Of a DNA stretch of 64,000 nucleotides, positions 39,249-42,835 are shown piece by piece. The stretch covers positions 868,001 through 932,000 of the forward strand of contig WGMG01000006.1 in the NCBI GenBank assembly GCA_016125185.1, in the 5' to 3' direction. Position 1 is the first letter of the stretch, and the number at the start of each line of letters is the position of its first letter. Below the pieces are notes generated by a model. The model ran no database searches, was not told the DNA's origin, and saw only the letters and a list, made by a program, of their open reading frames with translations. The stretch comes from Armatimonadota bacterium (GTDB lineage: Bacteria; Armatimonadota; Fimbriimonadia; Fimbriimonadales; Fimbriimonadaceae). The translations under genes were made by a program, and so were the position numbers.

Positions 39249-39677
39249 TTAGTGCGATCGCTCGTCGGTGAACTTGGCCATGAGACCCAGCGTTCCTTCG
39301 CCGACGTGATGTTCGATGCCTTCGGCCTCGATCTCGGCTGTGATCGGGTCGACGCCCAGGGCCAGCAGGAAAGCGACTACCGTTTGGTGGCGTTGGCGGC
39401 ACCGCTTGGCCAGTTCCTCGCCCTCGTCCGTTAGCTTCAGGGCTCGGTACGGTTTGAGAACGACGAGACCTTCTTGCTCCAGCTTTTTCAGGGCTTTGGA
39501 AACCGTGGGATGCGCGACCCCGAGCCGCTTGGCGATATCCACCAGGCGAGCCTCGCCGTGTTCGTCGCTCAGGTCGAGAATGACTTCGACGTAGTCCTCG
39601 GCCAGCTCCGTGCGGTGCGCCTCTCGCGTCTGCGCAAAGTTCTGCGCGAGTTCGTTCTGCGGTTTCTCGATCGTCAT
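39249..39677 (-). CDS. mntR: manganese-responsive repressor MntR
   Basis: A DtxR/MntR-type regulator of about 142 residues from the ATG at 39677; a longer in-frame ATG at 39716 would put coding sequence into the promoter. The helix-turn-helix reads ARLVDIAKRLGVAHPTVSKALKKL, and the metal-binding C-terminal helices keep the MntR pattern (QRHQTVVAFLLALGV, EAEGIEHHVGEGTL). The preceding TREAHRTELAEDYVE is the Gram-negative MntR signature. It is divergent from mntH, over a palindromic operator. Confidence 0.93.
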   Translation of the reverse strand: MTIEKPQNELAQNFAQTREAHRTELAEDYVEVILDLSDEHGEARLVDIAKRLGVAHPTVSKALKKLEQEGLVVLKPYRALKLTDEGEELAKRCRQRHQTVVAFLLALGVDPITAEIEAEGIEHHVGEGTLGLMAKFTDERSH

Positions 39678-39709
39678 TGTGAGCCCAGCCAACAAATTGT
39701 AGCATAGGC

Positions 39710-39740
39710 TTGACATTTTAGAGGAAACTAAGGCTATACT
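39710..39740 (+). promoter_or_regulatory. putative mntH promoter (-35 TTGACA, -10 TATACT)
   Basis: TTGACA at 39710-39715 and TATACT at 39735-39740 are separated by 19 bp, 37 bp before the GTG start. The MntR operator lies just downstream of the -10, so repressor binding would block initiation. Confidence 0.55.
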
Positions 39741-39776: not shown

Positions 39777-41162
39777 GTGGCGAACGAGTTAGAGGGCCGG
39801 TCCCTCCCCGAAGTAAACGAGACCGTCGAAGTTCCGAAAGGGGGCTCGTGGGTTCGTCGTTTCCTTGCGTTCGCGGGACCAGGATTCCTCGTCAGCGTAG
39901 GCTATATGGACCCCGGCAACTGGGGTACCGATCTCGCGGGGGGCTCTAAGTACGGCTACGCCCTGCTGTGGGTGATCTTCCTTTCGAACCTGATGGCCCA
40001 GTTCCTGCAGATTCTCTGCGCCCGCATGGGATTGGTAACGGGAAAAGACTTGGCGATGGCCTGCCGCGATTACTACAAGAGGCCGGCTGCGGTGGCGATG
40101 TGGATTCTCTGCGAGATCGCCATCATCGCTTGCGACCTGGCCGAAGTGATCGGCTCGGCTGTTGCCCTCAACCTCCTGTTCCATATCCCGCTCGAACTTG
40201 GCGTCGTGATTACGGGATTCGACGTCTTGCTCCTGCTGGGATTCATGAAATTTGGCTTCCGCAAGGTGGAAGCCATCGTCTTAACCCTGGTCGCGACGAT
40301 CTTCCTCTGCTTCCTGTATGAGGTCGTCATGTCTCAGCCCGCTTGGGGCCAAGCATTACGGGGCACCTTCGTTCCCACCGTGCCCGACCGCGATGCCTTG
40401 CTGATTTCGCTTGGCATCCTCGGCGCGACGGTGATGCCTCACAACCTTTACCTGCACTCTAGCATCGTTCAGACGCGAAAGCGCGGAAAGGAGGCGGGCG
40501 ATCTCGATCAGGCGATCAAGTACAACACGATCGACACGATCGTTGCCCTCAGTTTTGCCTTCTTCGTCAACGCCGCCATTCTCATTCTGGCTGCTGCCGT
40601 TTTTGGCAAAGCCGGAACCGTGGTCGAAGAGCTTCAGCAGGGTCACGGCCTGCTTCACGGCGCACTTGGGGCCGCCTCGGCGACCATCTTTGCGGTGGCG
40701 CTCCTGGCTTCAGGTCAATCATCCACGATCACGGGCACGCTAGCTGGCCAAATCGTGATGGAGGGCTTCATGAAGTGGAAGGTCGCTCCGTGGTTGCGGC
40801 GGCTGATCACCCGCCTGCTCGCCATCGTCCCTGCCATCATCCTCATCCACCTCAGTGGCGGCAAGGACACAGTTCAACTTCTTGTGATCTCGCAGGTCGT
40901 ACTTTCGATGCAGTTGCCCTTTGCGATCTTCCCGCTGTTGATGGTCACAAGCGATCGGGCAAAGATGGGTAACTATGCCAATGCGCCATGGGCACAGGTA
41001 GTCGGCTACGTGGTGGTCGCCGCCATTACCGCGCTTAACGTGTACCTGTTATACGACACAATTGGCCCGATGTGGTTGGGAGCGGCTTTGGCGGCGGTGG
41101 TCGCGTTCATTCTTTACGTCCAGTACGTCTACCAGCCCGAAATCGCCGCCGAAAACAAGTAA
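39777..41162 (+). CDS. mntH: NRAMP-family Mn2+/H+ symporter MntH
   Basis: A 461-residue transporter from GTG with GGAGAAG before it. The metal-binding motif of helix 1 reads SVGYMDPGNWGTDLAGG and helix 6 reads GATVMPHNLYLHSS, the two diagnostic NRAMP signatures. It has about 11 membrane segments. It would import manganese (or iron) with protons, repressed by MntR when manganese is abundant. The operator upstream supports this. Confidence 0.95.
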   Translation: MANELEGRSLPEVNETVEVPKGGSWVRRFLAFAGPGFLVSVGYMDPGNWGTDLAGGSKYGYALLWVIFLSNLMAQFLQILCARMGLVTGKDLAMACRDYYKRPAAVAMWILCEIAIIACDLAEVIGSAVALNLLFHIPLELGVVITGFDVLLLLGFMKFGFRKVEAIVLTLVATIFLCFLYEVVMSQPAWGQALRGTFVPTVPDRDALLISLGILGATVMPHNLYLHSSIVQTRKRGKEAGDLDQAIKYNTIDTIVALSFAFFVNAAILILAAAVFGKAGTVVEELQQGHGLLHGALGAASATIFAVALLASGQSSTITGTLAGQIVMEGFMKWKVAPWLRRLITRLLAIVPAIILIHLSGGKDTVQLLVISQVVLSMQLPFAIFPLLMVTSDRAKMGNYANAPWAQVVGYVVVAAITALNVYLLYDTIGPMWLGAALAAVVAFILYVQYVYQPEIAAENK

Positions 41163-41242
41163 TTTGACGCGGCTTTTGAGCCTGGTCCTTGCTCTGTTGC
41201 CACGCCCTTGGTTCGGTCCTGAGAAAAAATCTCGGGTATACT

Positions 41243-41360
41243 TAAATCTCGTCGAGTCCGGACAACGTTCGGAACGGGGGACCCAGACTTTTGGGGTGAA
41301 TCCAATCTTGGAAGAGCATCTTTCGGCTCTAACCCGGCAGCTAACCTCGTAGACACGTCG
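41243..41360 (+). promoter_or_regulatory. cyclic-di-AMP (ydaO/yuaA-type) riboswitch
   Basis: The conserved core is readable in order: ggaacGGGGGACCCA (41271-41284), TTGGGGTGAATCC (41291-41303), a local hairpin AGAGC...GCTCT (41313-41330), then AACCCGGCAGCTAACCTCGT (41331-41350). These elements match the ydaO consensus, including the GGGGGACCCA/TGGGGTGAAT pair and the invariant CAGCTAACCTCGTA. I did not confirm the outer P1 stem, which pairs poorly by eye. A TATACT at 41237-41242 may be the promoter -10. Downstream, AGGAGG can pair with CCTC, which would let the switch control translation. Confidence 0.85.
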
Positions 41361-41391
41361 AAAGAGATAGTCGATCAGACGTCTCGTGGCC

Positions 41392-41421
41392 GTTCCTCAA
41401 AGGAGGTGTCATTTGCGGAAC
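41392..41421 (+). promoter_or_regulatory. Shine-Dalgarno hidden in a hairpin downstream of the riboswitch
   Basis: The strong ribosome site AAGGAGGTG (41400-41408) can be paired with CCTC at 41395-41398, and outer arms GTTCC (41392-41396) and GGAAC (41417-41421) can also close. This is a plausible expression platform for the riboswitch, opening or closing translation of the following TTG start at 41413. Confidence 0.5.
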
Positions 41422-41622
41422 ACATCGTCGCATCCGAGTTGGTGCGGCAAACGGGTTTTATCCTTGACCAAACAAGGTTTTAACGAGAACATATCGAGAA
41501 AGGGAAGCCAAGGGCGGATATTGAGCCCTGCCACCCACTTGTTCACACCGCTTCGATTTACGTCGGCAACGCCGAGGCACAATGCTGTGCCTCGGCCCAA
41601 CTACCAAAAGGAGATCAAATGA
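41413..41622 (+). CDS. 69-residue leader ORF after the riboswitch (uncertain)
   Basis: A TTG start lies 4-5 bases after a strong AAGGAGGTG, and the ORF ends with a TGA overlapping the next ATG. The product (RNTSSHPSWCGKRVLSLTKQ ...) is basic and polar with no domain or signal. It also contains an 11-bp perfect hairpin near its 3' end, so the region may act as RNA leader rather than protein. Start, signal and overlap favour translation; composition does not. Confidence 0.35.
   Translation: MRNTSSHPSWCGKRVLSLTKQGFNENISRKGSQGRILSPATHLFTPLRFTSATPRHNAVPRPNYQKEIK
41571..41596 (+). other. 11-bp perfect hairpin in the leader of the small-gene operon
   Basis: GCCGAGGCACA pairs with TGTGCCTCGGC around a 4-nt loop, followed after 10 bases by AAAAGGAG and the ATG of the next gene. 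It has no T-tract, so it is unlikely to be a terminator. It may set relative expression or protect the downstream RNA. Confidence 0.55.
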
Positions 41623-41882
41623 ACCAAATCATCACACTTGAAAAGCGCCTCGCCGAAACTTGGAAAAGCAATCTTGACCCGAAAGCCAAAGCAGAGACTC
41701 TGCTGAAGCTTCAATTGGGAATTCAGGCTTATACCGGTCGATGTCGAGAAAAGCTTTCCTCGTTGGGGTCGGAGAAAAAGTGGGAGCGCGGCTTCTTGAA
41801 TCGGTCGATCGATCACCTCGAACACCTCGCGGCGGATTGCCGTCTCCTGCAGACGTGCCTGACGCAAGACCGGGGTGAATGA
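41619..41882 (+). CDS. unknown 87-residue helical protein
   Basis: AAAAGGAG precedes the ATG by a few bases. The product (ITLEKRLAETWKSNL, KAETLLKLQLGIQAY, RSIDHLEHLAADCRLLQTCL) is soluble and nearly all helix; I do not recognise it. It lies between the riboswitch-led leader ORF and the Acb2/Tad1-like gene, 5 bp from the latter, so it is very likely in the same operon. Confidence 0.7.
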   Translation: MNQIITLEKRLAETWKSNLDPKAKAETLLKLQLGIQAYTGRCREKLSSLGSEKKWERGFLNRSIDHLEHLAADCRLLQTCLTQDRGE

Positions 41883-41887
41883 TCTAG

Positions 41888-42235
41888 GTGAGTAGGCATA
41901 TCGATGGCTCGGTGCCGGTCGTAGACCAGCCGCACATTCGCCTGGAATTTCAGCACGGAAATCCGAAAGAAGTGGGAATCAACGGCTGTACGATCGAAGA
42001 AGTGATCGATGTCCTTGTCGACAAATTGGCGGAGTTTCAGAAAAGAGGTTTGGCTTGCAAAGAGAACTCCGTCGCCCTATGGCATTTAACATCTGCTCGT
42101 GATGTCCTCATCCTTCGTGCGAAGGTTCGAGAGGCGCAAGGGGTTCGTGGTGAAGATATTCCCCACGAAAGCCCCCATTTGATTGCGGAACTTCCTCCGA
42201 AATTTTCTGAGGAAGGAACGCTGATTGAGGCCTAA
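41888..42235 (+). CDS. protein resembling phage Acb2/Tad1-hairpin family
   Basis: A 115-residue protein from GTG, with GGGGTGA before it. The stretch LEFQHGNPKEVGINGC, followed by IEEVIDVLVDKLAEFQKRGL, CKENSVALWHLTSARDVLIL and VREAQGVRGED, has the order and wording I associate with a group of small phage/prophage proteins: 'FQ.GP..EVGVNG', then an 'EN..AL..LEEA' helix hairpin, then 'R..RGVEG'. Those are now grouped with the Acb2/Tad1 hairpin fold, whose founders sequester cyclic-nucleotide signals of CBASS and Thoeris. The ligand here is unknown and the match is from memory. Confidence 0.6.
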   Translation: MSRHIDGSVPVVDQPHIRLEFQHGNPKEVGINGCTIEEVIDVLVDKLAEFQKRGLACKENSVALWHLTSARDVLILRAKVREAQGVRGEDIPHESPHLIAELPPKFSEEGTLIEA

Positions 42236-42247
42236 CTTCTGGGTCAG

Positions 42248-42282
42248 GGCCGCCTGGGACAGGTACCCGGGCGGCCTTTTTT
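42248..42282 (+). terminator. intrinsic terminator of the riboswitch-led operon
   Basis: An 11-bp stem (GGCCGCCTGGG with CCCGGGCGGCC, one G-T pair) around a 7-nt loop is followed at once by six T. It is 12 bases past the Acb2/Tad1-like stop and closes the operon. Confidence 0.9.
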
Positions 42283-42328
42283 CGTCAGGTCCTATGCGTT
42301 TTTGCCCACCCTGGTGCAAACTTGGAAC

Positions 42329-42835
42329 ATGTCGCCAACCGAGCTCACCGAAAACGGTCCTCTCTACAGTTATTACCACGACCATCCCGAGGTCAAAAAT
42401 GTCAACGAAGTCCATGATTCCAAGATGACGGTTGGCCAAAAAGTTGCCGACCGGGTCGCGTCCCTCGTTGGCAGCTGGCCTTTCATCATCACGCAGTCGG
42501 TTGTTTTGTTTTTCTGGATCGTCGCCAACGTCTATTTCGCAATCCATCCCGGCGCACTCAAGGCGTTCGATCCCTATCCCTTCATCCTCCTGAATCTCGC
42601 CCTCAGCTTCCAGGCGGCGTACACCGGCCCGATCGTCATGATGAGCCAGAATCGGCAGTCGGAAAAGGACCGACTGGTGGCGCAGAGCGACTATCAGTGC
42701 AACCAGACGGCCGAAACTGAGATTCGCCTCCTGATGGACCACCTGATGCACCAGGACAAGATCATGGACTATATGATCGAGAAGATCGACAAGCTGGAGG
42801 CTCGGCTCTCGGAAGCCAAGTCCGGTCAGCCGTGA
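42329..42835 (+). CDS. DUF1003 membrane protein
   Basis: A protein of about 168 residues from the ATG at 42329. It has the DUF1003 order: a soluble N-terminus ending VGQKVADRVASLVGSWPFII, two membrane segments (TQSVVLFFWIVANVYFAI; PFILLNLALSFQAAYTGPIV), then MMSQNRQSEKDRLVAQSDY and a helical tail. The function of the family is unknown; it is often found with transport or stress genes. The operon before it is closed by a terminator. Confidence 0.9.
   Translation: MSPTELTENGPLYSYYHDHPEVKNVNEVHDSKMTVGQKVADRVASLVGSWPFIITQSVVLFFWIVANVYFAIHPGALKAFDPYPFILLNLALSFQAAYTGPIVMMSQNRQSEKDRLVAQSDYQCNQTAETEIRLLMDHLMHQDKIMDYMIEKIDKLEARLSEAKSGQP

Follow-up and report, generated by a model that had tools for sequence, protein, structure and literature searches.

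A c-di-AMP riboswitch recurrently paired with the gene of a distant Tad1 homologue in Fimbriimonadaceae

Tad1 (Thoeris anti-defence 1) is a hexamer that sequesters gcADPR, cyclic dinucleotides or cyclic trinucleotides. Acb2, a phage anti-CBASS sponge, is also small and helical and is grouped with Tad1 in a Pfam hairpin family. According to a review the Tad1 proteins characterised so far bind gcADPR as well as cyclic trinucleotides, Tad1 binds c-di-AMP (3',3'-cAA) weakly and Acb2 binds it with high affinity (PMC12043709). T4 Acb2 binds 2',3'-c-di-AMP with a Kd of about 62 nM, and the same compound is among the decoys of Panoptes (OptS/OptE, mCpol), which is triggered by CbTad1 and ColiTad1 (PMC12657218). 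Bacteria with Panoptes sense the loss of cyclic dinucleotides that is due to Acb2 or Tad1 (PMC12657218, PMC12657230).

Here we describe a Tad1 homologue that is not encoded by a phage but on a bacterial chromosome, behind a c-di-AMP riboswitch; Tad1-type ligand binding by this protein is putative. The locus lies in a 64,000-nucleotide stretch of DNA of a member of the Fimbriimonadaceae (the window). Panoptes likewise couples a cyclic dinucleotide to sponge proteins, but in the cassette of the window an RNA serves as the sensor and belongs to the very operon that encodes the sponge-like protein, and neither an mCpol nor a membrane effector was found. The pairing of riboswitch and Tad1-like gene joins known parts, is conserved and, as far as the literature searched shows, undescribed; neither Tad1-family proteins nor the three-helix proteins encoded beside them were found there as reported targets of c-di-AMP riboswitches.

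The aptamer of the ydaO/yuaA class (RF00379) occupies positions 41240..41371 of the plus strand. It is full-length and far above threshold: cmscan yielded 86.4 bits (gathering score 38), with E=9e-19 over the whole window and complete coverage of the model from 1 to 134. It was the sole Rfam match in the 64-kb window and bears out the ydaO-type riboswitch proposed in an earlier sequence-only reading of this DNA. The putative expression platform (41372..41412, plus strand; assigned from the sequence and a terminator scan) contains the Shine-Dalgarno sequence AAAGGAGGTG. Because the scan found no terminator-like element between the aptamer and the first start codon, control of the cassette at translation appears more likely than control at transcription. 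This Shine-Dalgarno sequence is covered by a CCTC-AAAG-GAGG hairpin, and just 5' of it CCGTTCC is able to pair with GGAACGG of the aptamer, a possible anti-aptamer pairing. When the accessibility of the Shine-Dalgarno sequence was computed by folding with and without the folded aptamer core (fixed P3 helix), little changed and no consistent direction was seen. The sequestered ribosome site of the sequence-only reading is plausible on account of the CCTC/GAGG hairpin, while switch behaviour was not seen in folding. In several leaders the Shine-Dalgarno sequence could form 5-7 bp with the UAACCUC strand of the aptamer itself; this pairing was considered and not accepted, as there was no covariation where the strand reads ACCCC or ACUCC.

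A frame of 69 aa (TTG...TGA, 41413..41622, plus strand) starts behind AAAGGAGGTG; its coding status is doubtful. It overlaps the start of the next gene as ATGA, and the possibility of a decayed member of the helical family described below was dismissed since the family profile matched no frame. Within this region a perfect 11-bp hairpin (41571..41596, plus strand) was found by folding just 5' of the ribosome site of the next gene. It has no T-run, the 66-nt stretch folds with -24 kcal/mol (z -3.5), and it may shield or couple that ribosome site. The next gene, gene A (41619..41882, plus strand), starts with ATG behind the Shine-Dalgarno sequence AAAAGGAG and encodes an 87-aa three-helix protein. 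It is followed by the gene of a 115-aa Tad1-family protein with two strands and a helical hairpin (41888..42235, plus strand, GTG start). An intrinsic terminator (42246..42282, plus strand) with a 13-bp stem (42246-42278), a 7-nt loop and a subsequent T-run closes the cassette. Thus the terminator that had been read from the letters was confirmed; of the two to three small genes claimed with it, those of 87 and 115 codons stand and the third frame is doubtful.

The whole cassette (41163..42301, plus strand) was delimited by comparison with congeners. To its left lies mntH, which encodes an Nramp manganese transporter (39777..41162, plus strand) and is divergent from mntR (39249-39716), to its right the gene of a DUF1003 membrane protein (42302..42835, plus strand). 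In the two closest congeners, G002 and G009, mntR, mntH, the DUF1003 gene and a TIGR04222 gene are contiguous, with a gap between mntH and the DUF1003 gene of a few tens of bases as compared to 1.14 kb in the window. In none of nine congeners whose mntH loci were compared was a Tad1-like gene present at the corresponding place. The G+C content of the cassette is 0.53, that of the window 0.57 and that of mntH 0.59. Direct or inverted repeats of more than 8 bases were not found at the ends of the cassette. In a tree of 61 copies the Tad1-like protein of the window grouped on a long branch with the copy of another genus (support 95/92). Taken together the insertion, the lower G+C content and this grouping point to horizontal arrival of the cassette. 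The notion of a prophage gene was rejected for the window copy, which sits in a chromosomal insertion between mntH and the DUF1003 gene without adjacent phage genes. The neighbours MntR, MntH, DUF1003 and TIGR04222 agree with the earlier statement that no prophage structural genes are near. Defence genes were absent from the cassette and the flanking genes examined, and no defence island was seen.

The 115-aa protein as a single sequence matched PHROG_2428 (E 5e-15) and, in a PDB sequence search, Tad1 8kbb (E 9.5e-7). A family profile of 21 Fimbriimonadales relatives reached 8kbb (CmTad1) with E 2.8e-15, the Clostridium Tad1 7uav with 2e-10 and gp184 (8y6v) with E 1.9e-13. AlphaFold2 predicted strands at residues 11-14 and 17-21 and helices at 36-52 and 58-83 with a mean pLDDT of 81.8; the N-terminal sheet of the model is shorter than that of Tad1 and of lower confidence. 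In a Foldseek search of the PDB the best 20 matches were Tad1 chains without exception (probability 0.99-1.00), followed by a match with an E of 2.9. The best match in VIA-align was CbTad1 with 1',3'-cADPR and cA3 (Z 8.4, rmsd 1.6 A over 68 residues). This Z is only modestly above the 6.1 of unrelated rows, and the Tad1 claim is carried by the sequence evidence. Compared with CmTad1 (8kbb) and CbTad1 (7uav/8kbf) the window protein is predicted to have the same strand-plus-hairpin fold over 68-88 residues, and it has the common signature Q/G/N-G/E-N/R...R; the FQxG motif is preceded by ~20 residues as opposed to ~50 in CbTad1. We conclude that the 115-aa protein is distantly homologous to Tad1.

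The sequence-only reading had spoken of an Acb2/Tad1-like protein. The profile and Foldseek results uphold Tad1; the nearest relative appears not to be Acb2, which gave no sequence or fold match among the matches listed (PDB sequence and profile searches, Foldseek and VIA-align), an absence that is weak evidence. At Pfam's own thresholds the 115-aa protein had no match, and the search against the hairpin family suggested at that time was negative, no match to PF24729 (Acb2_Tad1_hairpin) being found at E<=1 for the 21 relatives. Since Bacillus phage Tad1 does reach PF24729 with 33-34 bits, the family of the Fimbriimonadaceae is, judged by its profile, a divergent branch of Tad1.

The motifs EVGINGC, CKENSVAL and AQGVRGED, from which the kinship had been guessed, occur in the 115-aa protein and can be aligned with Tad1 of phages. 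When four family members were aligned with four phage relatives, one of them annotated as Tad1, residues Q22, G24, G30, N32, G33, E37, Q51, C57, E59, N60, A63, A70, R77, R81 and G85 were invariant. N60, R77, R81, E59, Q51, Q22, G24, G30, N32 and G33 were invariant or nearly so over the 61 chromosomal copies also. By alignment F50, N60, R77 and R81 correspond to F82, N92, R109 and R113, which we take to be ligand contacts of CbTad1; this serves as a lead only. All four residues are present in the window protein, and N60, R77 and R81 are invariant in all rows. The window copy is the most derived of the linked copies, with a branch of 0.98 and A/K/V in place of R78/R79/R80 of the family, and may have changed its ligand or decayed. 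Giant Pseudomonas phages have a larger protein with the Tad1 domain at its C-terminus (8y6v chain I, gp184; phage PA1C, locus L138), which is possibly packaged into the virion.

The synteny of the riboswitch and the Tad1-like gene, which the sequence-only reading had proposed to check in related genomes, was followed in 85 Fimbriimonadaceae genomes (Armatimonadota), many of which are metagenome assemblies. A Tad1-like gene was present in 63 and a c-di-AMP riboswitch in 74 of the 85. By comparison of coordinates, at least 16 genomes of 8 genera have an aptamer that is followed on the same strand, at a distance of 46-806 nt, by a Tad1-like gene, a lower bound because the genome-wide RNA search used strict filters. 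Random placement would yield about 0.02 linked pairs, and chance pairing was therefore rejected. In G030 and G086 the Tad1-like gene starts 46-48 nt behind the aptamer with no intervening gene. The Tad1-like gene is the last of the unit, and the outer neighbours vary between genera. On the tree of 61 copies the linked state needs 5 changes, at least 4 of which are forced by well-supported branches, and no shuffle matched this; therefore the linkage was gained or lost several times. No missed riboswitch was detected at 18 unlinked Tad1-like loci.

Most Tad1-like genes in these genomes are without a riboswitch, and such genes are common on chromosomes of the order. Elsewhere in the phylum copies did not extend beyond this order (67 of 291 genomes). 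A search of contigs with the single window protein gave no match; a profile search with the family alignment gave 50 loci, and most of the named relatives belong to the Fimbriimonadaceae or to other Armatimonadota. A Tad1-like gene with the same signature is present in genomes of Metabacillus and Bacillus (loci L230-L234, L236-L238 and L241). No riboswitch was found near the Tad1-like genes of these genomes and of viral contigs. All 20 genomes of the genus possess a second Tad1-like gene that is not linked to a riboswitch (in the source genome L006, C6:772210-772542). It has been kept vertically, and its C-terminus ...RTED..EFSATGA is constant in the copies read.

The product of gene A was 31% identical (E 3e-11) to that of the second gene behind a riboswitch of G025 and 30% identical to the corresponding one of G036. 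A profile seeded with ten small proteins encoded behind riboswitches without a Tad1-like gene needed two to three rounds to reach most middle genes at the Tad1 loci; the 87-aa protein of the window joined in the first round at a marginal E of 0.0087. At the 61 Tad1-like loci this helical family was found at riboswitch loci only (13/16), and it often occurs behind c-di-AMP riboswitches without a Tad1-like gene. Among its 34 copies in the 85 genomes 29 are located directly behind an RF00379 match by coordinates. The five genes without a detectable riboswitch nearby are G025 C6:203595, G017 C102:15965, G004 C124:3806, G073 C4:262074 and G032 C25:3893 (L242-L246). AlphaFold2 modelled the 87-aa protein as a three-helix bundle (pLDDT 93.5). 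Profile matches in the PDB were limited to designed helical bundles and coiled coils, Foldseek returned nothing under E 0.001, and Pfam had no match for the window protein. By these profile comparisons the 87-aa protein is a member of an as yet unnamed three-helix family associated with c-di-AMP riboswitches.

The source genome (4.52 Mb, 13 contigs) contains four RF00379 copies and one diadenylate cyclase with a DAC domain; because of the latter the host presumably synthesises the riboswitch ligand. Our literature search found no paper naming Fimbriimonas together with c-di-AMP, and c-di-AMP biology seems to be hardly studied in the phylum. Elsewhere in the source genome RF00379 copies stand ahead of hisB and of an ABC transporter gene of the osmoprotectant type, both named from the sequence by eye. 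As a target the hisB gene (imidazoleglycerol-phosphate dehydratase-like) is unexpected, and its leader is unusually long. It is located about 180-870 nt behind c-di-AMP riboswitches in many Fimbriimonadaceae (L001, L026, L028, L034, L163, L168, L173, L179 and L182, comprising C6:1175596 of the source genome and loci of relatives). About 12 kb past the end of the window a riboswitch on the minus strand (L004, C6:943701-943834) heads a gene for a second type of helical protein, 132 aa in length, which was seen also at L162 and L190 and is outside the reach of the helical-family profile. Genes of MFS-like transporters, again recognised by eye, are found behind or near c-di-AMP riboswitches of several genera (L041, L052, L187, L188, L189 and L191).

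We favor the view, at a probability of about 0.4, that the riboswitch controls a cassette whose Tad1-family protein binds c-di-AMP and so adjusts or buffers the free c-di-AMP. The cassette would be a self-contained, horizontally moving unit of the Fimbriimonadaceae, in which the riboswitch governs the three-helix and the Tad1-family protein, probably at translation. The Tad1-family protein would most likely assemble like Tad1 and hold cyclic nucleotides in a conserved pocket between protomers. Its likeliest ligand would be c-di-AMP, given that in hosts making this nucleotide the gene has been put under c-di-AMP control time and again. Such binding is chemically reasonable since Tad1 and Acb2 are reported binders (PMC12043709, PMC12657218). 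If c-di-AMP turned the operon on, the outcome would be buffering; if it turned the operon off, a fall in c-di-AMP would become steeper. Against a c-di-AMP sponge speak the weak published affinity of Tad1 for c-di-AMP, the strongly derived window copy and the many Tad1-like genes without a riboswitch. Furthermore, the Tad1 domain at the C-terminus of the larger gp184 means that the fold need not denote a free sponge.

The binding of gcADPR and cyclic trinucleotides by characterised Tad1 (PMC12043709) would also suit a protein whose ligand is not c-di-AMP but a signal of defence systems (gcADPR, cA3 or a CBASS dinucleotide). It would be a domesticated anti-defence protein that shields the cell against its own alarm systems, and the switch would merely tie its expression to the osmotic or envelope state. 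The best fold match, the form bound to cADPR and cA3, and the relatives in phages are in line with this idea. Yet the cassette and the flanking genes examined lack defence genes, and there would be no obvious reason for the repeated coupling to c-di-AMP in 8 genera; we regard it as rather unlikely. A further explanation takes the Tad1-like fold as a nucleotide-free assembly scaffold and partner of the three-helix protein, with c-di-AMP acting via the RNA alone. It would account for the helical protein being the more constant partner of the riboswitch (29/34 copies) and for its gene being the first small one at many riboswitches that have no Tad1-like gene behind them, and the domain does occur in other contexts, e.g. 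in the 230-aa gp184. However, the Tad1-like gene is alone behind the aptamer in G030 and G086, most Tad1-like genes have no helical partner, and the polar and charged residues common with phage Tad1 are not needed by a bare scaffold, which leaves this explanation with a small likelihood.

Finally, the operon might act as an alarm akin to Panoptes, where the riboswitch frees the operon once c-di-AMP has been lowered by a sponge or nuclease of a phage, and both proteins act in defence. Panoptes indeed senses the loss of cyclic dinucleotides caused by Acb2 and Tad1 (PMC12657218, PMC12657230), and the cassette is mobile and patchy as defence genes are. Such an alarm requires an OFF switch, whereas folding gave no consistent direction. 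In the same genomes c-di-AMP riboswitches also precede hisB, transporters and osmolyte-type genes, no toxin-like protein was recognised and no defence island was seen. We consider it highly improbable.

To return to the binding of c-di-AMP by the Tad1-family protein, we tentatively propose that it would be a Tad1-type sponge of the bacteria themselves, a receptor or buffer of c-di-AMP that is feedback-coupled via the riboswitch and accompanied by a new three-helix family. Tad1 and other sponge proteins are known as means by which phages counter nucleotide alarms; the conserved pairing described here suggests that bacteria may use Tad1-type sponges in their own signalling. It adds a small protein family to the genes controlled by c-di-AMP riboswitches. 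With a Tad1 homologue in a host module under an RNA sensor of an essential second messenger, a role of sponges in normal signalling is now directly testable, as is the question whether phages took their sponges from host signalling. If the protein is indeed a c-di-AMP sponge of the host, it would be the host counterpart, and perhaps the source, of the anti-defence sponges of phages.
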